Below, piece after piece: positions 53 through 35,661 of a DNA stretch of 35,661 nt. The notes under the pieces were generated by a model, which saw only the letters and a list, made by a program, of their open reading frames with translations, was not told the origin of the DNA and made no database searches. This stretch comes from a virus. Position 1 is the first letter of the stretch, and each line of letters begins with the position of its first letter. The position numbers and the translations under genes were made by a program. Where the stretch lies: positions 1 to 35,661 of IMG/VR virus record IMGVR_UViG_3300042355_000985. One strand, given 5' to 3'.

Positions 53-154
53 ATTGCAAAATCTCTAGTGTCAAGACACCTGGATCAGGTCGGGGTATTT
101 CTTGGCGACAAGATGCACCTTGCCCGCCGCCCACTGCTTCATGGATCGCTGGAA
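1..154. repeat. Left copy of the terminal overlap (matches 35439-35592)
   Basis: Bases 1-126 are identical to 35439-35564, and 1-154 match 35439-35592 with one difference (position 127, C versus A). From 155 to 223 the two copies drop to about 71 percent identity (20 differences in 69 bases) but stay in the same reading frame of the same gene. This fits the overlapping ends of a circular or circularly permuted genome assembled from a mixed population. A real tandem arrangement of two related phages is possible but less likely. Confidence 0.9.
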
Positions 155-781
155 TTGGCCCACCCGCTTGCCTACGGCGCGCTGCAATGCCGCCGAGCCG
201 CCTGCCCAGCGGTTACTAAGTTCGGAGTAGTTCTCGCCGGAAACAGAATAGTTGTCGGTCTTGGTGTCGCGCTGAGTGCGGACGGCAAGGGGACGCTTGT
301 TTCGCGCGGACTTAACGCGCGGATTCACGGATATTTTGTAGCCAAGTTGCAAGGCTTGCTCATACCAGTGCTTTGCGGCCACGCCAGAATTTTGGATTTT
401 TTGCCTTAGAGATTCTGCTCGTTGTTCGCGTATTCTTGACCAAAGCCAGTTAGGGTATCTGTTGTTGAGTTTATACAACAGAGCGCCAGAGGTTTGCCCG
501 CCCCGCCTTTGGTTTGCTTTTTGGGCAAAGTATTGTTCTCTCCCGCTTACTGCGCCCTCATAAGGAATCCTCATGGCAGAGTATTCCTGCTTGTTGTGGT
601 CGTTGATGATTTTGTTGACCGGCGCCACCTTCGTCTTGGCGACGGTATCCTGCAAAATGGCAGCCACTTCACTGTCAATGACCGTTGCCATGTCGTTGCC
701 TGTGAGGGCGGCGAGCTCGCGGCAGACGAAAGAAAAGTCGCGGAAACCTTTGTTCCGAACGGCTTTTATCTTGATGCCCAT
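71..781 (-). CDS. Tail assembly-region protein, 236 aa, unknown function
   Basis: Lies between the tail chaperone pair and the tape measure, so it probably acts in tail assembly or in the tail tube or tip. I do not recognise a domain. It is rich in Arg, Lys and Gln and begins MGIKIKAVRNKG. ATG at 781 is chosen because it follows the stop of the chaperone fusion by two bases and has the near-consensus box CTGACA 14 nt upstream; a longer in-frame reading would run through the chaperone gene. The stop codon TGA at 73-71 lies inside the TTGACA box that precedes the tape measure. The last 50 residues appear again in diverged form at 35509-35661, with 4 amino acid changes, which shows the protein is conserved between strains. 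Confidence 0.8.
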   Translation of the reverse strand: MGIKIKAVRNKGFRDFSFVCRELAALTGNDMATVIDSEVAAILQDTVAKTKVAPVNKIINDHNKQEYSAMRIPYEGAVSGREQYFAQKANQRRGGQTSGALLYKLNNRYPNWLWSRIREQRAESLRQKIQNSGVAAKHWYEQALQLGYKISVNPRVKSARNKRPLAVRTQRDTKTDNYSVSGENYSELSNRWAGGSAALQRAVGKRVGQFQRSMKQWAAGKVHLVAKKYPDLIQVS

Positions 782-2946: not shown

Positions 2947-3248
2947 TTGCTGTCAGGGCTTTGCAGGGTCAGGTCGATGGTGGCCGTGTCGGTGTCGATG
3001 CCGGTGATGCGGTAGCGGCGGTCTTGGAATTTGACGATGCCGCCGAGGCGGAACGCGGGGGCGCCGGCCTTGAGCACGGTGGCGGTCAGGCCGCGCTGGG
3101 GCTCAAAGCCGCCTTCGCCCAGGGAGTTGCCATAGGTTTCCTCGCCCACCACGGCCAGATAGGTGCGCTCGCGGTATTCGATCTGGTCGCGGATCGTGCC
3201 GACGGCCTCGGTCGAGGCTGCGGTGTAAGCCTGGGCAAACTGACTCAT
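2943..3248 (-). CDS. Putative head-tail joining protein, 101 aa
   Basis: Small protein with a C-terminal half that looks like a beta-barrel (GGIVKFQDRRYRITGIDTD), as in head-tail attachment proteins such as gpFII of lambda. It is the first small gene after the capsid and glycosyltransferase genes, the usual site for connector components. ATG at 3248 overlaps the stop of the glycosyltransferase gene (ATGA type) and is also preceded at 13 nt by CTGACA, one mismatch from the recurrent box. Function inferred from position and fold impression. Confidence 0.65.
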   Translation of the reverse strand: MSQFAQAYTAASTEAVGTIRDQIEYRERTYLAVVGEETYGNSLGEGGFEPQRGLTATVLKAGAPAFRLGGIVKFQDRRYRITGIDTDTATIDLTLQSPDSK

Positions 3249-5008
3249 GCGATGGGGGCGGTGTCAGCGGGCCAGCGGCGGCGGTAGACTTCGTTGCCGT
3301 AGGCATAGCCGGGCTCGCTGTTCTCGATGGCGTAGGTGGCGTCGGTCGGGACGGCGGGATTGAAGAACGGATGCTCGTGGCGCAGCGTAATGTCGGACGG
3401 GACGAGGATGCCGTGTTTCTGAACGAGGCGGGTATAATCGTTGTCACAGAAAACGCCCCGGTATTCGGGGCAGACGATGCCGCCGTTGAAGCCGAAGAGC
3501 TTGAGCGTGGGGCGCGTGACGCAAAAGGTGATGAGCAGATCGTCCTGGCGGTAGCCGTCGCGGATTTGCAGGGCGGCGGGCTTGTGCAGCTTGTCGGCCA
3601 GTGCCTCCTCGATCTGCTTGTCCCAATGGAGCGGACAATGCAGATCGTCTTGGATGGTCAGGATGATTTGCCCTGCGCTGGCGCGGACGCCGGCATTGTA
3701 GTTCTCGACCAGGGTGCCGCCAACCTGGTCGAGCTTGCCCGCAGGCGAAAGGGCATGGCGGAAGCGTTGCAGGATGCCGCGCGTATCATCGTCATCCTCG
3801 GAAAAGGCAAAGATGTATTCGATGCGCTCGGGATCGGCGGCGGCATCGAGCCACGCCTTGCGGACGCGGGCGGCTTGTTCAGGGCGTCCGCGAGTCGGGT
3901 GGACGATGGAAATGCTAACTTTGTGCTGCTTGATGCGGGCGCGTTCGATGTTGTCGGCCTTGTCGCCTTGCCCGGCCATGCGGAGCCATTGCGTCCACAG
4001 GGTTTCTCCTGCCCATCCGTAGAGGCCGTCGCGGTGGGTCCACGGCTTATCCACTGGGCGCGGCAGGGCCATCATGGCGCGGAGGTAGGCTTCGGCGGTC
4101 ACGAGGTCGCCGAGGTCGAGGTGCATGGCGCCGAGTAGGGCCAAGGCTTCGCGGCGGTTGGGCTGCGTTTTGTAGGCCGAATGCAGCGCCGTCATCATGG
4201 CTTTGTATTCGGGCGAGTCGGTTTGCAGGATTTCGGGCCGAGCGAGTTCGCAAATGTTGAGGCAAAGCTCGTAGCGTTCGGTGCTTTTAAGGTCGGGATG
4301 GGCCAGCGCCTTCTTGGCTAAGTCCATCGCTTCGGCTTTTCGGCCTTGGCCCATATATTCGCCATGCAAATGGTAAATTTCTGAAACTGTGCGCTCTGCT
4401 TCGGGGATTGACTCCAAGATGGTCAGATTGCGGTTGCTGCCCTGCTTGGGCTCATCGTCGGGCAAATGCACCACGGTCGGTTCGTCGCACTTGGCAATGC
4501 GGGCGTCGGCATCGAGTTGGAAATTCTCGTGGATGCGATTGACCCACTTGCCTTTGTCGCGGCGGACGAGGCGCTCGCGGATATTATGGGCGATGCCGCG
4601 CCCGGCCACGTTGTGAAACAAGGCAAAGGCGTCGAAGTTCTCGCCGTGCTTTTCCAGTAGCTCGTGCAGGGCAGGCGCGAAGTTCGGCCCTGGCGTATCG
4701 TCCGCGTCCACCCACAGCGCCCACGGTTTTGTGGCGAGGTCGAAGGATTTCTGGCGGGCGGCACCAAAGTCCGAAACGTGCGGCCAGTTTTCAAACTCTG
4801 GCGGGTTGTTCCAGACATCGTAGGTCGCGCCATGCTTCTTGCAGACTTCCGCGACCATAATGCTCTTGGCCTCGCCCCCTGGCGCGTGAACCACAACCAT
4901 TTCGCTGACTGCGGGACCGAATAGCGTGAGGCACTTGTCGAGCCGCTTCGGCTCGTTTCCCACGATGACGCAAAGCGCGATCTGCTCGCGCGGGCTGATT
5001 TTCTCCAT
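3245..5008 (-). CDS. Glycosyltransferase with two GT2-like domains joined by a helical repeat region, 587 aa
   Basis: Residues about 10-190 resemble a GT-A family 2 glycosyltransferase: IALCVIVGNEP at the N-terminus and an acidic VDADD motif at 100-104. Residues about 205-355 are helix-rich with TPR-like character. A second GT2-like domain follows from about 363 (SISIVHPTRGR, DDDD at 405-408, TIQDD at 451-455). Both have the acidic motifs expected for binding a nucleotide sugar and metal. No signal peptide or membrane segment is visible, so it should act in the cytoplasm. It lies between the major capsid and head-tail genes, after a terminator and with its own TTGACA box 17 nt before the ATG, which suggests separate expression. 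Possible substrates are capsid or tail proteins, phage DNA or host surface sugars; the sequence does not say which. Confidence 0.85.
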   Translation of the reverse strand: MEKISPREQIALCVIVGNEPKRLDKCLTLFGPAVSEMVVVHAPGGEAKSIMVAEVCKKHGATYDVWNNPPEFENWPHVSDFGAARQKSFDLATKPWALWVDADDTPGPNFAPALHELLEKHGENFDAFALFHNVAGRGIAHNIRERLVRRDKGKWVNRIHENFQLDADARIAKCDEPTVVHLPDDEPKQGSNRNLTILESIPEAERTVSEIYHLHGEYMGQGRKAEAMDLAKKALAHPDLKSTERYELCLNICELARPEILQTDSPEYKAMMTALHSAYKTQPNRREALALLGAMHLDLGDLVTAEAYLRAMMALPRPVDKPWTHRDGLYGWAGETLWTQWLRMAGQGDKADNIERARIKQHKVSISIVHPTRGRPEQAARVRKAWLDAAADPERIEYIFAFSEDDDDTRGILQRFRHALSPAGKLDQVGGTLVENYNAGVRASAGQIILTIQDDLHCPLHWDKQIEEALADKLHKPAALQIRDGYRQDDLLITFCVTRPTLKLFGFNGGIVCPEYRGVFCDNDYTRLVQKHGILVPSDITLRHEHPFFNPAVPTDATYAIENSEPGYAYGNEVYRRRWPADTAPIA

Positions 5009-9112: not shown

Positions 9113-10885
9113 TCAATCGGCGGGCGTGGCCGCGGCGGGCTTGATGATGTTGCCGTATTCGGCCAAGGCCAAAATCATCAGCTCGGCGTCGAGCATGTGG
9201 TTCGGCCGGCGCCCGATCTGTTTCCAAAGATAGGTCTCGCGGCCGGTCAGGGGTGATCGGCGCATGATTTTGCGGTGGGCGTCGAGGTGGGCTTTGTATT
9301 CTTCCGAGGCATCAGCGGCTACGGTCCAGGCCGGGCCTTGGCCGCCGCGGAGCCACTCGAGAACGTCCTGCGCGGCGGGCGAACTGAAGAGCATGAGAAA
9401 CCATCCGCGGCGGTAGGGCTTGATGACGGAGATGGCTTTGCGGAGGGATTTTCCGAATTTGACGCCGTAGCCTTCGAGGCGGTCTTCGCCTTTGGCCGGG
9501 ATGTAGCGGTTGCGGACGCAAACGTCCAAGACTTCGTCGGTGCGGAATCCGCTGTCGACCACGACCAGCTTGGCCATCATTCCGCCGATGTTGCGCTGGG
9601 TGTCGAGCCCGAGCTCGGTGACTTTGAACTCGAGGTCGGCCCAGGTGGTCAGGCGGCCTTCGTCGATGAGTTTGCTGCTGCCGTCTTTGGCGAACGAACG
9701 GCAGACGAAATAGAAGCAATCTTGTTGAACGTCGACCGCCATCAGTCTCGCGGTCCCCTCCTCCACCGGGGCGCGAAGGGTGTATTCGCCGACGGTGAGC
9801 GGCCGGCTCTCGGTGGTCATGGCCTCCTCCCACGGCTCGGCCAAGATGCTGTTGACGAAATCCTGCAAGCCCATGAGGGATTGTTTGTCTTGGAGGAATT
9901 TGACGGCCAGCGCGCCGAAGCTGCGGCGCACGGAGTAGAGCGCGGAAAGGTGATAGCTGCGATGGCCGGGGAGAGCGCCGAGATTTTCTGCGCGCCATTC
10001 GCCTTCGCGGAGCATTTTGGTTTTGCTGGCGTCGGTGATGTGGCCCGCGCAATGGGGGCACTCGAGGCGGGCGGTCTCGCGGACGCGCTTCAGATCCCAT
10101 TGGCTGTCGCTGATCTTGGCGTCGTCGTCCCATTTCATCATGGGCCAGTTGAGCAGGGTCATTGCCTGGCAATGTGGGCATGGCACCCAGAAGCGGCGCT
10201 GGTCGCCCTCGAGCCAGGCTTTCCAGATCGAGCCTTCCTGCGTGGTGGGCGTGCTGGTTTGCACGATCAGGGCCATGGGGAAGGACGCGGTGCGCTGCAC
10301 GGCGAGCTGGACGGCCGCGGCCTCTTGCTTGGTCTTGGTTTTGTATTTGTCGACTTCGTCGAGGCAGAGGAGCGAAATGGAACGGCCGGCCAAGTTGCCC
10401 GGGCTGTTGGACCCGACGAACCAGAGGTGCATTCGGCGGAAGGCTTGGTCGAGGTTTTTGAATTTGTCTTTGTTGCCGGGCATCTCGGCGCGGAGCACTT
10501 CGTTGTCGTCGATCATCACTTGCCAGCGCGACTCGGAAAACGATTGGGCGTTGGTCTGCGTGTCCAGCACCCAAAGGGCCGGCGCTGGTGCGCGGCACAG
10601 GCGGTAAGCCATGCCGACTTGGATGGCGGTTGATTTCGCCACCTGAGCGCCGCAAAGCAGGGCCATGGAACGAACGCCGCTGGCGGGGTGGAACGCATCG
10701 AGCCATTCGCGCATGTAAGGGTAAGATCGAACGCGAAACGGCCCCGGGGATGACGTGAAGCGAGACGAAAAAGAGATGTTGGCCTCGGCCCACTCGGTAA
10801 CAGACTGCCGCGGGTGCGGCACCCATTGGGCCTGCCACATGGCGCGGGCGCGGGCGCTTGAATCAGGAATCCAGGCGCAGGGCAT
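9113..10885 (-). CDS. Terminase large subunit, GpA family, 590 aa
   Basis: DNA-packaging ATPase and nuclease. The N-terminus carries the GpA hallmark SVTEWAEANI..SPGPFRVRSYPYMREWLDA; Walker A is GAQVAKST (residues 79-86) and Walker B LLCLDEVD (172-179). A zinc-binding pair follows (CPHC and ECPHCAGH). The nuclease half has LMAVDVQQD and LVVVDSGFRTDEV with the expected aspartates. GpA-type enzymes usually cut at cos sites, so the virion DNA may have cohesive ends, although no cos was located. The start at 10885 overlaps the small subunit gene by 23 bases; an ATG at 10840 (MWQAQWVPHP) would give 575 aa and is also possible. Confidence 0.95.
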   Translation of the reverse strand: MPCAWIPDSSARARAMWQAQWVPHPRQSVTEWAEANISFSSRFTSSPGPFRVRSYPYMREWLDAFHPASGVRSMALLCGAQVAKSTAIQVGMAYRLCRAPAPALWVLDTQTNAQSFSESRWQVMIDDNEVLRAEMPGNKDKFKNLDQAFRRMHLWFVGSNSPGNLAGRSISLLCLDEVDKYKTKTKQEAAAVQLAVQRTASFPMALIVQTSTPTTQEGSIWKAWLEGDQRRFWVPCPHCQAMTLLNWPMMKWDDDAKISDSQWDLKRVRETARLECPHCAGHITDASKTKMLREGEWRAENLGALPGHRSYHLSALYSVRRSFGALAVKFLQDKQSLMGLQDFVNSILAEPWEEAMTTESRPLTVGEYTLRAPVEEGTARLMAVDVQQDCFYFVCRSFAKDGSSKLIDEGRLTTWADLEFKVTELGLDTQRNIGGMMAKLVVVDSGFRTDEVLDVCVRNRYIPAKGEDRLEGYGVKFGKSLRKAISVIKPYRRGWFLMLFSSPAAQDVLEWLRGGQGPAWTVAADASEEYKAHLDAHRKIMRRSPLTGRETYLWKQIGRRPNHMLDAELMILALAEYGNIIKPAAATPAD

Positions 10886-11447
10886 TGCCAGTGTTGCTGA
10901 GTGTGCTGAAGACTTGCTCGAGGTAGTCGGCCACGGTGTCGCGGGCTAACTCGGGGTCGGATGGGTTTGCCGCCTGGGCGATGGCGGCCGGCATGGCCTC
11001 GAGGAGGGAACGCAGTTTGCCCGTCTCCTCGGCGATTACGGCCTGCACTTGGTCGCGGTGCATGAGGGTCTGGGCCTCTTGCTCGCTTTTGACCATGTCG
11101 CGCTTCCGCGTCTCGTGCGCCTCTTCGGCGTCGCGAACGGTGCGGCTCGCCGCGGCGCGCTCTTGGATACTGCCGGCAGCCTCGAAGTCGCGCACCGCGA
11201 TCCGGCGCATATGGTCGGTCACGGCCAGATCGTCGGGCAGATCGACGGGATCGGGCGCCGGTTCAGTTGGGCGCGGCGCCGACGGCTGCGAGGTCTTGGT
11301 TCGCCTGGCGTTTTGGTTAGCGCGCCGCCACTCCGTTGCGGCCTCGAAAGAGTCGAGCGGCATCCCACGCTTCACCGCTTTCGCCACGGCCGGCTGGCTG
11401 ATGCCAAGCGCTTTGGCCATCTGGCCTTGCGATAACCTTTGGGACAT
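10863..11447 (-). CDS. Terminase small subunit, 194 aa
   Basis: DNA-recognition subunit of the packaging enzyme. The N-terminus holds a helix-turn-helix (MAKALGISQPAVAKAVKRGMP, residues about 10-30), then a Pro-rich linker and a long helical region ending where the large subunit begins, as in Nu1-type subunits. It directly precedes and overlaps the large subunit gene. ATG at 11447 is chosen; a GTG one codon upstream is also possible. TTGACA (11466-11461) lies 13 nt upstream of the ATG. It is the first gene of the packaging and head block, after a 107-bp gap. Confidence 0.85.
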   Translation of the reverse strand: MSQRLSQGQMAKALGISQPAVAKAVKRGMPLDSFEAATEWRRANQNARRTKTSQPSAPRPTEPAPDPVDLPDDLAVTDHMRRIAVRDFEAAGSIQERAAASRTVRDAEEAHETRKRDMVKSEQEAQTLMHRDQVQAVIAEETGKLRSLLEAMPAAIAQAANPSDPELARDTVADYLEQVFSTLSNTGNALRLDS

Positions 11448-11554
11448 CACCCATAACCGCTGTCAAAGGGTTATAGCTCGCAGAAAAAGATCGGTCTTGA
11501 TCGGGCACTTGCGTCTTAGGTCGCAAAGAGATTCCTTTGCGCCAAAACAACAGG
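11448..11554. other. Intergenic gap between early-type and packaging genes
   Basis: One of the few real gaps in the leftward gene string. It contains a perfect 7-bp hairpin CGCAAAG (11522-11528) / CTTTGCG (11535-11541) with a 6-nt loop and no T-run, the TTGACA box of the small terminase gene, and a TATAAC sequence on the minus strand at about 11476-11471 that could be a -10 box, although I see no matching -35. A late promoter here is likely from context but not demonstrated. Confidence 0.45.
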
Positions 11555-22053: not shown

Positions 22054-22332
22054 ATGCCAACACTTGCCAATGTTACGGAGTATGATACCGCTGTGCTTGG
22101 CAGTTGTTGGCAGTGCTTTTGTAACCCATTGACCATTAGCGGCGGCCGCTCCCCTCGAAATCGAGCGTTGGGTTAAACCAACCGTGGGTTCGAATCCCAC
22201 CCCTTCCGCCACTTTTCTCTGTAAAAGCGGCACAAGCTCAGACACTTACGCCGCTCCAGTGTCTTTACTTGTCGCGGCTTTTCGTTTGCTAATGTTGGCA
22301 ATGGAGCGTAGGTTTTTGGCAATCTTGGCAAT
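22054..22332. repeat. Seven TTGGCA-type repeats flanking attP (candidate integrase arm sites)
   Basis: Copies of TTGGCA(A/G)T: inverted at 22064-22071 and a variant at 22054-22061, direct at 22097-22104, 22107-22114, 22295-22302, 22316-22323 and 22325-22332. Pairs are spaced 9-10 bp, one helical turn, and groups lie on both sides of the tRNA core. This is the layout of arm-type sites bound by tyrosine integrases. The right-hand group overlaps the start of the integrase gene, so binding could also repress it. Confidence 0.7.
22154..22211 (+). other. attP core: 3' part of a tRNA-Ser(CGA) gene
   Basis: From the anticodon loop CTCGAAA (22154-22160, anticodon CGA) through a long variable arm with TTGG/CCAA stem, a perfect T arm GTGGG-TTCGAAT-CCCAC (22184-22200), the acceptor strand CCCTTCC, discriminator G and CCA (22209-22211). 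The long variable arm and G73 identify tRNA-Ser. The 5' half of the tRNA is missing and the bases before the loop do not pair with the anticodon stem, so this is not a working tRNA but the identity block that rebuilds the host gene on integration. Confidence 0.85.
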
Positions 22333-23335
22333 GAGGAGCAACATTAACCCCGTAAGATTCCGAGTGCGCCGGGCCGATTGGAACAAAACTAACCCGTGGC
22401 TATGCGATTTTTTTGCCCACGGTCAGAGGGTGCGGCACTTTTTCCCCAGCGAGGAATTGGCGTGGGCGGAAGGCGCAAAGCTCACCGCCCGCGTGACCGA
22501 GAAAGGGACGCAATCCCTACGCAACCCGGATGGCCTGACGGTCAAAGGTGCCCTGCGGATGTTTGTGAACGAGGCCGATCCAGAGTCGGCCAGCCACGAG
22601 GAAAAGCTCGGCATTTTTGAACGAGCGTTTGGCAAGTCGTTCAGCGGACCCGTGGGCGACATCGAGGCCGTGGCCCTGCGGAAGTGGGTCAAGGGTCGCT
22701 CTGCCAATGGCAACACACAGGCCATGTATTTCCGCTACGCGAGGATGTTTTTCCGTTATCTCGCGGCCAATCGCCTAATCCCGCACGATCCCATGACGGC
22801 GGTTCCCGCGCCCAAGACCAAGCCTCGCCGCGACATCCTCACCCCTGCCCAGATGAAGGCGCTGCTGGCCTTGGACTTGCCCGACCATGTGCGCGCGTTG
22901 CTGCTCCTTGGCGGCTTTGCCGGGCTGCGAACTGAGGAGGTTGAGCGGATGGATTGGGCAAACGTAAATACTAAAACGGGCCAGATCCACGTCCCGCCCG
23001 GCGTGATGAAAGACAGCGGCGGATTCGATCAGCGCATTGTGGATTTCACCGAGCCGCTGAAACGGCGCAAAGCGTGGCTTGCCAAGCAATCGGGCAAGAT
23101 TATCCCCGTGGCCTCCGAAACCCTGCACACGCACCGCCGCCGCGCCTGTGCGCCTCTGCTGGCCGAATGGCCCGACAACTGCCTACGGCACAGCTTTGCC
23201 ACTTATCACTTGGGCCGCGCCAAGAATGCAGGACTGACGGCCTACCAGATGGGACACACCGACGCTCGCATGGTTCAAAAGGTATATGCCGTGCCCGCCG
23301 CCCTCGCTGACTGGAAGGCTTGGTGGGCTGTTTAG
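22292..23335 (+). CDS. int: Tyrosine recombinase integrase, 347 aa
   Basis: Integrates the phage at tRNA-Ser through attP directly upstream. The C-terminal catalytic domain shows the box I arginine in GFAGLRTEEVERMDW, a box II NCLRHSFATYHL, the MGHTD motif and the nucleophilic tyrosine in MVQKVYAV. The usual His of HxxR is Asn here. The N-terminal half (SHEEKLGIFERAFGKSF, TQAMYFRYARMFFRYL) is the SAM-like core-binding domain. The open frame extends back to 22184 but would lie within the tRNA remnant. ATG 22292, 22301 and 22331 are all possible and none has a Shine-Dalgarno; the TTGGCA repeats cover these starts. One of only four rightward genes. Confidence 0.9.
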   Translation: MLAMERRFLAILAMRSNINPVRFRVRRADWNKTNPWLCDFFAHGQRVRHFFPSEELAWAEGAKLTARVTEKGTQSLRNPDGLTVKGALRMFVNEADPESASHEEKLGIFERAFGKSFSGPVGDIEAVALRKWVKGRSANGNTQAMYFRYARMFFRYLAANRLIPHDPMTAVPAPKTKPRRDILTPAQMKALLALDLPDHVRALLLLGGFAGLRTEEVERMDWANVNTKTGQIHVPPGVMKDSGGFDQRIVDFTEPLKRRKAWLAKQSGKIIPVASETLHTHRRRACAPLLAEWPDNCLRHSFATYHLGRAKNAGLTAYQMGHTDARMVQKVYAVPAALADWKAWWAV

Positions 23336-26411: not shown

Positions 26412-26906
26412 CTACCCGGCTAAGTCAGCAACAGCCTCCGCGCTCGCTTCCTCAAAGCTCGCCGCAGGACTTCCAAAGCTGGCCGCTGGCGCAGCGACAG
26501 GATTGAGCGCCCAGCCAAGCATCACGCCTTCAAGCCACGCCTTGCACGCGGTCATCTTCACGCCGAGGGGTTTGCCTGCTTGAAGCAGGGCCATTTCAAA
26601 ACGCTGGAGGGCAAGCGTCTGGTAAGGCGAGAAGTATTGGCTGACAGCCTGTTCGGCGGTGATCGTCGGCACAGGCGCAGGCGTTCCCTCCACCCACTGC
26701 CGCTCGACGCGATCTTCAAACCAGACCACATTGGGCTCCCATGACCCTGTTGCGGGCTTTGATATTTTTATGAGCGGCACTACCGTCTGCTGAACGCCGT
26801 CGATCTCTGGCACATCGCGGTAGTTGCCTTGGTCATCGGTGAGAAGCGAGACGAGTTGCTGTGACGGGACAAGGCCGACTGTTTTCGGGTTGGGATCAGT
26901 TTGCAT
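26412..26906 (-). CDS. Protein next to tail fibre, 164 aa, possible fibre accessory
   Basis: Starts MQTDPNPKTVGLVPSQQLVS at ATG 26906, overlapping the fibre gene by 11 bases. The middle is acidic and Trp-containing (GSWEPNVVWFEDRVERQWVEG); the C-terminus is Ala/Ser-rich. No chaperone or enzyme motif was recognised. Position immediately after the fibre suggests a fibre assembly or attachment role. An upstream start at 26921 is possible. Confidence 0.65.
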   Translation of the reverse strand: MQTDPNPKTVGLVPSQQLVSLLTDDQGNYRDVPEIDGVQQTVVPLIKISKPATGSWEPNVVWFEDRVERQWVEGTPAPVPTITAEQAVSQYFSPYQTLALQRFEMALLQAGKPLGVKMTACKAWLEGVMLGWALNPVAAPAASFGSPAASFEEASAEAVADLAG

Positions 26907-29637
26907 AGGTGCGTTGGGCAAATTGGCAGAGCGCGATCCACCGCCATGTTTCCGAGGCGACCCCCGTGCATTCGACCTTCAGCGCATCGTTGGTATCGTT
27001 GGCCGTGATGGAAATAGAAGTGCCCGCCGCTTCGTCTGTGCCGACTAAGTTGACCGTGCCGACCAGAGAAGTTGTCCCGCCGACATTTTTGATTGTCACT
27101 TGGCGCATATAGCTGGCGACTGCCGCGCCGTCCGATTTTGAGCCGACGATATGCACCAGCCCCGTCATCACATGGCCGCTGGGTATAGAAAAACGAACGG
27201 CCCCGCCTTGATCTGCGCCTGCAAATAACTCAACCGCGCTGTTAGTCGTGGTGTTGCCGTAAAGCGTGAAGACGGTGAACTGCGAAATTCCGCTTGCTGA
27301 AGGTCGGCCCGATGAAAAAGCAAATTGTCCGTTGATGGTGGCGTTTGTATTTGCACCGAGGGCCACTGTGCCGTTCGCCCCGCTGGCCGTTGGGCGTTGT
27401 CCCATAGCAAACGAATAGTTTCCGCTTGCCGTGGCATTGAAGCCTAACGCGACAGACGCCACTCCGCTTGCCACATTTGAGTTTCCGCCGCTTATCGCAT
27501 CGTTGCCAGATGTTGTGTTGTTTTCGCCATTGAGAATGATCGAACGGTTGCCGCTGGCCACGTTCGTCGCCGCAAAACGGGGCGACCATTGCAAGTCCAC
27601 GGCATACTGGCCGCGAGAATTTCCGCCAGCGGTTGTTCCCGTGGCACTTGCGCCGAGATAAAATGCGCCGTTGCCCTTTGGCGCTAAGACAAGCGCCGAG
27701 TTCGTTTCGCTGTGATTGTTGCGAAGCGCGACATTGGCCTGCGTCGAGGTTGTGGCGTCATCAATGACCAGCGCCGAATTCTGCAACGTGCTGCCCCCCG
27801 TGCCGTCACTCCGCAAAATAGAATTGTCGATCGCGCCTGTGCCGCCGCCGATAGTGCCAGTGGCCGTAGCCGTCAAGGTAGTGCCCGAAATCGACAGCCC
27901 CGACCCCGCCTCCAGATACCGCAATTTTGATTCCGAATCATCCCAGAAAACAATGCGGTCAGCGTTCGGGTCATCGGCCACCAGATCAGACCCCGACACG
28001 CTCAAGACATCGGCGGTGGATGCGCCGACTGCGGTGACGCCACCACTCGCCGCCGCCCACTTCACTCCCAAAGTCTCAGCCGAATCGACTGTAAGCACAT
28101 GGCCGTTCGTGCCGCCCACAGGGAGTCGCGCCACGGTGTCTGCTGCCGAGGCAACGATGAGGTCGCCTTTGGCGTCGAGGAGGGTTGCAGGGATGCCCGC
28201 GCTGACGGTCGAAGACAACTCCCCCGCCGAGAGCGAAAGGCCCGAGCCGACTGTTATCTCCTCGACTGCCCCTGCGCTCGCAGTCGTTCTTCCGAGGATG
28301 CGGGCGGTGGCTTGGGTTAGGCCGCTGGTGGTGATGGAGCCAGAGGCGGCTGCGCCGAGGTTGGTGCGGGTGTTTGCGGCGGCAGTTGATGTAAAGTTTA
28401 TGTTGTCGCCATTTATGGAAATTTCGTCAGATTCTGACGTGACGGAGATTTGAGAGGAAGCATTGAAATATTGTGCGTTTATTCCTTCAAACGTAACCGA
28501 AGAATCTGTGTTCAACGACTGATCAAAAATCTCATCCGCGCCATCGGGGAGGTGACTTGCGGCGTGAAGATTCGGGTCGCGGTCATCCGAAAGCCGCGCA
28601 TCGTTCCCCTCGCAAAAGCTCCCTGCCGTGTTAGAAAAAGAACCCGCCTCGACTACGCCGTTTGTGCCTGTTTTGAGCGGGAGGTTGGCGGTGGTGCCGA
28701 TGGCTCCCGCGTTCGTGATGTTGCCGTGGGTGTGGGATGCTTGCGCTGCGCCAATGTCTGCGGGACCAACATTTTCGCCAATAAAAGTCGAAAGGTTGCG
28801 CCACGATGCCGTGCCATCGCCATCGCTTGCTAAGATGTCATCGGTCCCCGCGCCCGTGGAGGAAAGTGAAGAGAGTTCGTGGGTGTGTGCCGTGGGGGTG
28901 CGGCTGTCGGAAAGGCGGCTGTCGTTGCCGAGGACGACTTGCGTGCTGCTTGCGTTGCCTGTTTTTGCCGTTTTTAGCTCAATAATATTTGAAGCAGCAG
29001 CGTCCGAAACATCAAACAAATTGGCTTGATCGACCTCGACGCTGCCCGCCTGAGGACTTACGGCGCTCCACTGTCCTGTTGCCTGCCAAGGAAAGCTTGC
29101 GCTGCTGCTCTTTTCAAAAAGATTAACATCTGCTTTGTTGGTTAAAAACCATTTAGACAAGTCGCTGTCCCACCAGATATAGCTCCGCGTGGAGGTGTTC
29201 TCATACACGGCACGGCTATTGTCGCTGCCGTTCCTAATGTAAATCCCGCCATGAGTGCCGCTGCCGCCGCTTTGGGTGACAAAAGCCGCGTCGGCAAATA
29301 CATCAGACGGCTGATGATCGTGGTTGGCGTTGGCGGCGTCGATTGATGCGGCGGTTATGGTGACCGCGCCCGTTTGCTCGTTCACGCTGGACACACCGCT
29401 CGCCGGGGCCGCGCCCCATTCGGGTGCGGTTGCGCCTGCGTTGACTTTTAGAATTTGTCCTGCGGTGCCGATGGGGAGGCGCTGCCCCGCGGCCGCCCCG
29501 CGATAGAGCAAGTCGCCTTGTGTGGTCAGCGTTTCCAGCCCGGTGCCTGCTGGCCCCGCTGGTCCCTGCGGTCCCGCCTCGATGACTTTGATGACATCGG
29601 TCGCCGCGCCTGTGCGTATGGTGATCGTCTCGGCCAT
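26896..29637 (-). CDS. Tail fibre / receptor-binding protein, 913 aa
   Basis: Trimeric fibre features: a short N-terminal anchor, a collagen-like GPQGPAGPAG (about residues 22-31), repeated fibre segments (LTTQGDLLYRGAAAGQRLP, DSRTPTAHTHE, HTHGNITNAG), then at about residues 700-785 YadA-head-like repeats (VASGVASVALGFNATASGNY). The C-terminal ~95 residues form a beta-rich tip (SGHVMTGLVHIVGSK on) that probably touches the receptor. Largest gene in the window. ATG at 29637 follows the previous stop by four bases. Confidence 0.85.
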   Translation of the reverse strand: MAETITIRTGAATDVIKVIEAGPQGPAGPAGTGLETLTTQGDLLYRGAAAGQRLPIGTAGQILKVNAGATAPEWGAAPASGVSSVNEQTGAVTITAASIDAANANHDHQPSDVFADAAFVTQSGGSGTHGGIYIRNGSDNSRAVYENTSTRSYIWWDSDLSKWFLTNKADVNLFEKSSSASFPWQATGQWSAVSPQAGSVEVDQANLFDVSDAAASNIIELKTAKTGNASSTQVVLGNDSRLSDSRTPTAHTHELSSLSSTGAGTDDILASDGDGTASWRNLSTFIGENVGPADIGAAQASHTHGNITNAGAIGTTANLPLKTGTNGVVEAGSFSNTAGSFCEGNDARLSDDRDPNLHAASHLPDGADEIFDQSLNTDSSVTFEGINAQYFNASSQISVTSESDEISINGDNINFTSTAAANTRTNLGAAASGSITTSGLTQATARILGRTTASAGAVEEITVGSGLSLSAGELSSTVSAGIPATLLDAKGDLIVASAADTVARLPVGGTNGHVLTVDSAETLGVKWAAASGGVTAVGASTADVLSVSGSDLVADDPNADRIVFWDDSESKLRYLEAGSGLSISGTTLTATATGTIGGGTGAIDNSILRSDGTGGSTLQNSALVIDDATTSTQANVALRNNHSETNSALVLAPKGNGAFYLGASATGTTAGGNSRGQYAVDLQWSPRFAATNVASGNRSIILNGENNTTSGNDAISGGNSNVASGVASVALGFNATASGNYSFAMGQRPTASGANGTVALGANTNATINGQFAFSSGRPSASGISQFTVFTLYGNTTTNSAVELFAGADQGGAVRFSIPSGHVMTGLVHIVGSKSDGAAVASYMRQVTIKNVGGTTSLVGTVNLVGTDEAAGTSISITANDTNDALKVECTGVASETWRWIALCQFAQRTYAN

Positions 29638-33615: not shown

Positions 33616-35490
33616 TTAGGCAAGGGCGTGTTGCGGCAGCTTTTCGTCAATCGACGGCATATGCTTTTGCAGAAGAGAATGAATTTGGTTTATTATGCCT
33701 TGCTCGCCGCCTCCGCCGCCGCGCGGAGCGTTTTTTTGACGCATCTCTTCTTCTTCGCGGGCGCGTTCTTCCGGGGTTTTGGATTGCTCGCGCGCCAAGC
33801 GATCAAAGTTTGCCTGCTCGTCGCGGGTCGGGTCGTATTTGAGGCCCGCCTCTTTAAGGCCTTTTTCAATTAAGCTCTTGCTATTTAGACCGCCAAACAT
33901 ATCACGAAACTGACCAAAAGCCTCGCCCGCGTTGCCCGCTCCAAACTCGGAGCCATAAAAATCCCGCACACGTTGCTTTTCTGCAATGCGGTCAGCGGTT
34001 CTGTCAGCCCGGTCAAAGGCTTGCACGGCGCTGCGATACATTCCCGCTTCAGCTAATTCATTGCCGCGCTGCCTCGCGCGGTTGCCGCGACTTTCGCCGC
34101 GCAGCATGGCCGCGCGCATACCTTCGGTCGGTGGCGCGGTTGTGCCGCCACCGCGCGGACCGTAAAGTGCGCGGGCGTTGGCTTCTTCGTTGGCGATGCG
34201 CTGGCTGGAGTTTTGCGCGCGTTCTGCGGCTTTAGTGGCGGAAAAATTGGCGGCAGTTTCAAAGCTGCCCGTCTTTTGCAGAGCGGCCTGGAAGTCGGCT
34301 TGCTGGCGCAGGGATTCTTCAAGCTCTTTGTTGCCGGCCAGTTTAGCCTCCATCAGCGCTATCTCGGCTTCCATTGCGCGGATGGCGTCTTGGCGCTGCT
34401 GCTCTTGGCGCTCCATTGCCGCGTTTTGGCGGTCGATCTGGTCGGCCTTGTCGCTTTCTAGGCGCACCAGTTCGGCTGTGGTGTCCTCGGACAAATCAAG
34501 TTGCGCCTTGGTGCCGCGCACGTTTTCCAGCACTTGCTTGGTCCGATCGGCGATAAGCTCTGCGTTGCGAACGGCGTCTAGGCCGAAGGCGCCTTCGCGG
34601 GTAAGTTGGGCAATGGCGGTGGCGCGGGCTTCGATTTGTTCCATTTCGGCAATGGTTTTGCCCGTTTGCAGAAGTTCCCAGAGCGGCTTAATGTTTCCAG
34701 TCAAAGCCAACGTCGCCGCCGCGCTTAGTTTTGCGATGTTGCCGAGGTCGTTTAGCAGGCTTCCAAGGCGCTCACTAGTGTTGACGATGCCCTCCAACAG
34801 CGTGGCAAAGGCAACCTTTCCGTCGTTGCCCAAACGAGTAAGTCGATCATTTGCCGCTTCAATTTTACGGACTACATCGTCCGAGGCCACCGATACCCCC
34901 TCCATCTCCTGCCGAAGCTGCGCCGTGTTGTCGATGAGCGGAATCATCTGGCTCGCCGAGCGGGTCCCCATGCGCTCGATGAGTTCGTTTGTTGCGTCGG
35001 CATTGCCCCTTGCGCGATTGAACGCTTCGGAAAGCTGAATTAGTTGTTGATCAAACCCGGAGTTTTTGAACTTTTCAGCGTTGATTCCCGCAGTTTCAAA
35101 TGATTTAGCCATTGCTGCGTTGCCGTTCGTAGCATCGCTGGCAGCTACACTCAGTTTGGTCAAGACACGCGCCACGGTGTCGATGCTGGTCCCAGCCAAT
35201 TCAGCGGCCACCCCAACCCGCTGCACCTCTTCGGCGCTGGCGCCAAAGCGGGTTGCGGTTTTGGAAACCTTGTCGAAGCCGTCCATCAACGACTTGAGCC
35301 CAGCTAGGGCCATGCCGCCCGCCAAGATGCCAGAAAACTCCCGCATGGCGGTGGACATGCGCGACCCCATTTGCGCCGTGCGGCTTTCGATCTGCGCCGC
35401 CGCCTTGTCCATCTCGGACGGCATCTCGCGGACAGCCTTTTTGTATTCGCTGTTATCCGCGCCGAATTTCCAGATGGAGCCGAAGGCCAT
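33616..35490 (-). CDS. Tail tape measure protein, 624 aa
   Basis: Sets tail length. The N-terminus MAFGSIWKFGADNSEYKKAV and the long helical, Gln/Ala/Glu-rich body with coiled coils (QNAAMERQEQQRQDAIRAME) are typical; a hydrophobic stretch FSGILAGGMALAGLKSLM (about 53-70) is common in tape measures. At roughly 0.15 nm per residue it predicts a tail near 90-95 nm. ATG at 35490 has TTGACA (35512-35507) 16 nt upstream, whose TGA is the stop of the preceding gene. Its first 17 codons recur at window positions 1-52. Confidence 0.9.
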   Translation of the reverse strand: MAFGSIWKFGADNSEYKKAVREMPSEMDKAAAQIESRTAQMGSRMSTAMREFSGILAGGMALAGLKSLMDGFDKVSKTATRFGASAEEVQRVGVAAELAGTSIDTVARVLTKLSVAASDATNGNAAMAKSFETAGINAEKFKNSGFDQQLIQLSEAFNRARGNADATNELIERMGTRSASQMIPLIDNTAQLRQEMEGVSVASDDVVRKIEAANDRLTRLGNDGKVAFATLLEGIVNTSERLGSLLNDLGNIAKLSAAATLALTGNIKPLWELLQTGKTIAEMEQIEARATAIAQLTREGAFGLDAVRNAELIADRTKQVLENVRGTKAQLDLSEDTTAELVRLESDKADQIDRQNAAMERQEQQRQDAIRAMEAEIALMEAKLAGNKELEESLRQQADFQAALQKTGSFETAANFSATKAAERAQNSSQRIANEEANARALYGPRGGGTTAPPTEGMRAAMLRGESRGNRARQRGNELAEAGMYRSAVQAFDRADRTADRIAEKQRVRDFYGSEFGAGNAGEAFGQFRDMFGGLNSKSLIEKGLKEAGLKYDPTRDEQANFDRLAREQSKTPEERAREEEEMRQKNAPRGGGGGEQGIINQIHSLLQKHMPSIDEKLPQHALA

Positions 35491-35592
35491 ATTGCAAAAT
35501 CTCTAGTGTCAAGACACCTGGATCAGGTCGGGGTATTTCTTGGCGACAAGATGCACCTTGCCCGCAGCCCACTGCTTCATGGATCGCTGGAA
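35439..35592. repeat. Right copy of the terminal overlap (matches 1-154)
   Basis: One mismatch in 154 bases relative to 1-154; the exact match covers 126 bases. To the right of it the sequence continues for 69 bases into a diverged version of the same gene. If the molecule is circular, the unique length is about 35,438 bp. Confidence 0.9.
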
Positions 35593-35661
35593 GAGGGAGA
35601 CGCGCTTGCCCACGGCGCGCTGAAGGGCGGCGGCTCCCCCAGCCCACCGGGTGCTGAGTTC
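35509..35661 (-). CDS. Diverged 3' fragment of the 236-aa tail gene (strain variant)
   Basis: Encodes the last 50 residues of the protein at 71-781 with four substitutions (for example ELSNRW versus ELSTRW, and GQFQRS versus SLFQRS). Over the diverged 69 bases 20 differ but only four residues change, so most changes are silent. The gene is truncated by the window edge. This pattern shows selection on a related strain rather than sequencing error. Confidence 0.85.
   Translation of the reverse strand, partial: ELSTRWAGGAAALQRAVGKRVSLFQRSMKQWAAGKVHLVAKKYPDLIQVS

Follow-up and report, generated by a model that had tools for sequence, protein, structure and literature searches.

A 127-base terminal repeat followed by a second tail-gene allele in a 35,661-base uncultivated phage record

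The IMG/VR virus record IMGVR_UViG_3300042355_000985, analyzed here over its entire length of 35,661 bases (the window), ends on sequence that repeats its own beginning and then departs from it within a gene of the tail region. This overlap raises the question of whether the record is a complete phage map, a genome with a duplication or a molecule with repeated physical ends, and of where its diverged part comes from. Our analysis favors, with a probability of about 85%, a closed phage map of 35,438 bases which was opened by a de Bruijn assembler (k = 127) at a 127-mer shared by two alleles, A and B, and which carries 96 additional bases of allele B. The length of the repeat, the position of the contig start, the unbroken order of the genes in relatives and the homology between the two alleles are direct observations.

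The right end of the window (35439-35661) could be aligned to positions 1-223 without gaps and with 21 mismatches. The exact repeat is 127 bases long, with a left copy at the contig start (1-127) and a right copy at 35439-35565; an initial annotation, made from the sequence alone, had given 126. Position 128 (C versus A) is the only mismatch within 1-154, so that 153 of these 154 bases are identical, including all 26 at 129-154. Over 155-223 the end copies agree at only 49 of 69 positions (71%). The reading frame nevertheless stays intact across these 23 codons, which contain 12 silent differences and 4 residue changes, and the translated copies share 46 of 50 residues. A change-point scan placed the switch in identity after position 154, and its score was reached in none of 10,000 mismatch shuffles. 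The initial annotation had described a near-identical repeat that falls sharply to about 71% identity while frame and most residues are kept, and the gapless alignment confirms this description. All 88 repeated 40-mers in the window came from this single end pair among the matches listed (first 1/35439, last 88/35526; 88 = 127 - 40 + 1), and by this count and among these matches the window contains no other long exact direct repeat. The right copy stops 96 bases short of the end of the record. These bases (35566-35661) belong to the second allele, and because of them the repeat does not occupy both extreme ends.

A de Bruijn contig built from a circular template retains a repeat of length k. 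The window contig starts exactly 127 bases upstream of the first base that differs between the alleles, which is the expected place of a graph vertex with two exits. The contig would thus begin at a 127-mer with two outgoing branches, circle once along allele A, return into the same 127-mer and leave by the other branch, allele B, which would be followed for 96 bases until that branch ends. Use of metaSPAdes with k up to 127 is stated in two reports on metagenomes linked to the Joint Genome Institute (JGI; PMC7171226, PMC10604447). The comparison is drawn from these other JGI-linked assemblies, and we infer the same assembler for the window record. The initial annotation suggested that the join may be an assembly choice, and both the exact length of 127 and this value of k bear this out. 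The authors of CheckV (PMC8116208) describe end repeats as long as k (with 55, 77 and 99 as examples) and circular templates opened at random places, and the window resembles such contigs in having a k-long repeat at an arbitrary opening point. De Bruijn assemblers are also described, in PMC11443906, as unable to link strains over identical stretches longer than k.

We examined relatives of the window found by a terminase scan of the viral_contigs collection (61 stretches, 59 of them relatives) and compared nine full or near-full records. In one relative (G009) the ends repeat each other perfectly over 127 bases, and the record opens near window position 21.3 kb. Another (G006) opens near 19.7 kb, and a third (G002, stretches L067-L068) inside the integrase gene, near 22.26 kb. 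The openings of these records at three other map positions suggest that the opening place is arbitrary and is not a packaging end at the tail genes. Two further records, G004 (L071-L072) and G007 (L077-L078), end in C or G runs without a clean repeat. Such runs, at or near the contig ends of G004 and G007 and at the start of L037, are probably sequencing artefacts. Relatives that run from cos to cos, 34.2 and 36.7 kb in length, flank the 35.4 kb of the window. A 72-base scan taken from the overlap found nothing in viral_contigs, where the window's own record may be excluded.

The closest known sequence to allele B is G001 (IMGVR_UViG_3300045999_010827; stretches L003, L065 and L066). Over 155-223, B matches G001 at 64 of 69 positions and A does so at 48 of 69. 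Over 1-127, where A and B are identical, G001 matches both at 105 of 127; over 1-154 with position 128 left out, A and G001 agree at 129 of 153. At position 128, B differs from both A and G001. On these comparisons allele B reads as an A-like end joined to a G001-like body. The initial annotation had taken the diverged end for a version of the same tail gene; it is indeed homologous, and its sequence is close to that of another phage in this group. Since B equals A over 1-127 and matches G001 at 64 of 69 beyond 154, a mosaic second strain is its likely source. In this coexisting strain the gene copy would be G001-like up to near its 3' end, where homologous exchange would have joined it to an A-like end. 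The breakpoint could not be confined to about 127-155, as had been proposed. The crossover may lie at or below 127 if the single-nucleotide polymorphism (SNP) at 128 belongs to the B lineage, or in 129-154 if this base is a later mutation. If k was 127, read-supported words would underlie the final 128 bases on both sides of the switch, and the switch would then more probably have arisen in a molecule than through a mis-join; contigs from smaller k are, however, also reused by assemblers.

It is also conceivable, if rather unlikely, that B is a chimeric molecule of strain A and a G001-like phage from the sample, formed while the library was amplified, the join itself having arisen as proposed above. 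The abrupt change of B from A-like to G001-like lies inside a conserved stretch, where template switching can occur, and the branch is short (96 bases). However, a switch inside 129-154 leaves the SNP at 128 unexplained, and with B matching G001 at only 64 of 69 positions a third parent would be needed; assemblers also usually clip rare chimeric branches. Several observations do weigh against the proposed closed map with an allele from a mosaic second strain. A library chimera would give nearly the same picture, and a degenerate scan for allele B brought up the record of G001, with a near form, and no other contig. In addition, the end repeat of G006 is 73 bases rather than 127, and the ends of G002 overlap imperfectly over 139 bases, with a single mismatch, at 127, and an exact part of 126. 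A history without any exchange, in which 1-154 is under strong selection and B is a diverged strain throughout, is very improbable. A and G001 are likewise closer to each other in 1-154 than in 155-223, but they differ there at 24 of 153 sites, whereas a single site of 154 separates A from B.

The closed map also restores a gene order which is found in relatives. The gene before the tape measure gene (71-781, minus strand; allele A) codes for a protein of 236 residues, which is 71% identical to its homologue in L003 and has no Pfam or PHROGs match. The gene for the tail length tape measure protein (33616-35490, minus strand) starts inside the repeat, as 35490 corresponds to position 52. On the closed map 18 bases separate the two genes (stop at 71, start at 52). 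They are contiguous in L003 and L007, and in L003 the gap is also 18 bases. G001, to which L003 belongs, is therefore like the window in gene order over the join and differs from it in sequence: the tail-module protein is 71% and the tape measure protein 61% identical, and nucleotide identity, where aligned, is 57-85% per 100-base step from window 400 across the join to 34338. Neither the tape measure protein nor the first 25 kb of the window had a near match among named phages. Alignment searches with the tape measure protein confirmed 1 of 23 stretches in viral_contigs, from the record of G001, and none of 72 in genome_contigs. A tandem duplication of the gene end and the tape measure start in one genome would place both copies in the record, as is seen, but it is a highly implausible origin: L003 and L007 hold one contiguous copy, the repeat length equals k, and the contig ends would fall 127 bases before the allelic difference by coincidence.

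The relatives also indicate where the physical DNA ends may lie. The window encodes a terminase large subunit (9113-10885, minus strand; PHROGs phrog_15) and small subunit (10863-11450, minus strand; PHROGs phrog_57), and it was the large subunit that detected the 59 relatives in viral_contigs. In 24 of their 59 contigs (L006, L009, L012, L013, L016, L019 and 18 others) the first base is the same, with the motif AGTGC[C/T]CGA, and lies at window 11509 (minus strand), immediately ahead of the gene for the small terminase subunit. The motif is internal in 17 contigs, among which three have it only 11-31 bases from an end and one (L050) has a second match elsewhere, and it is absent from 18. Two relatives, G003 and G005, begin at this site, and the same 14 bases recur at their far ends, with AGA and with AGATCGGAA after them. 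We read these trailing letters as the start of the Illumina TruSeq adapter; its first letter happens to continue the match, so that the exact match of the ends comes to 15. Such ends would be explained by 5' overhangs of 14 bases that had been filled in. A pattern scan for the site plus adapter letters found five contigs, one of which is the record of G005. G008 starts at the site and its far end falls about 160 bases short, and the ends of G001 flank the region without containing it.

The shared starts and the 14-base ends suggest cos packaging. The putative cos site of the window, with the 14-base overhang AGTGCCCGATCAAG, is at 11496-11509 (minus strand) and is placed by matching conserved sequence, as the window contig runs through it. 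The packaged DNA is most likely linear, with cohesive ends at window 11509 and not at the window ends. The initial annotation had proposed a complete circular genome of about 35.4 kb. The data support a complete map of 35,438 bases, but "circular" is a property of the map and probably not of the packaged DNA. The idea that the overlap is a physical terminal repeat of virion DNA, a packaging repeat at the tail genes, can be dismissed: direct repeats do exist at the ends of phage DNA, but here the fixed ends of relatives lie at 11509, other records open elsewhere on the map and the repeat falls short of the record end. Lambda and P2 are the named type of temperate phages with cos packaging. The window group resembles such temperate tailed phages in the fixed ends before the terminase genes (seen in relatives), the probable cohesive ends, an integrase and a tape measure protein. 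It differs in that the best terminase among named phages is 32% identical (20 of 653 records listed) and all 653 matched records are below 60%; the 14-base overhang is read solely from contig ends of relatives.

The integrase region provides a clue to the host. The integrase open reading frame (22184-23335, plus strand; PHROGs phrog_1) begins from GTG inside an attP-like core of 58 bases (22154-22211, plus strand), and therefore its true start may lie further in. This core equals the 3' half of the Verrucomicrobiota tRNA-Ser(CGA). An exact search with 35 of its bases matched 13 contigs in genome_contigs, with titles naming Verrucomicrobia or Spartobacteria, Chthoniobacter and Chthoniobacterales; we place the latter three in Verrucomicrobiota. 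In nine of these contigs the match is to tRNA-Ser(CGA) genes with 58-60 identical bases, and in three to tRNA-Ser(GGA) with 36. One contig (L092, 3494-3528) contains a tRNA-Ser 3' half without a recognised tRNA gene, possibly an att site of an integrated element. Thus, on sequence identity, positions 22154-22211 are probably the attP core and point to a host in Verrucomicrobiota.

Searches for related prophages by terminase gave no close match. Among the 13 genomes with the tRNA match one was positive, at 30% identity; among 387 sampled genomes of the phylum, 19 had matches at E <= 1e-30, with a best identity of 36%; and among 213 genomes of the order, five had matches at E <= 1e-60, with 33-42% identity. 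The best identities within the order, 39-42% over long stretches, exceed the 32% of the best named phage (among the 20 of 653 records listed). As no close prophage terminase was found, the host assignment rests on the attP-like core.

The overlap itself, apart from the complication of a second allele, is of the ordinary k-mer kind, and the phage group is more interesting. The identity of the window to the nine relatives jumps along the map. G004 is 85-96% identical per 500-base step from window 33947 to 29947, and no match to it was detected over the gene before the tape measure gene or over the initial 1.2 kb of the latter; in this unmatched region, G001 matches the window at 57-85% where aligned. 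A sharp exchange point near the tape measure start fits this mosaic pattern. At somewhat short of even odds, the seam reflects a recent homologous exchange among co-occurring members of a group of temperate Verrucomicrobiota phages with cos packaging, in which the gene would have been swapped near its 3' end and the tape measure start kept; such seams would hide complete genomes from circularity checks.

Two other genes of the window may be mentioned. A 587-residue protein with a glycosyltransferase family 2 match is encoded within the head gene cluster (3245-5008, minus strand), and a protein of 913 residues (26896-29637, minus strand), which matches the YadA head repeat, is possibly a tail fibre or adhesin.

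These data allow the record to be counted as a complete phage map, and they indicate that checks requiring a repeat at both extreme ends can miss completeness when strains vary right where the map was opened. Beyond the initial annotation, they add the completeness of the record, probably the DNA ends at 11509, and a likely host group. The relatives supply DNA ends at base level for an uncultivated phage group that recurs across many metagenomes, and a testable host group, Verrucomicrobiota, is named by the attP-like core.
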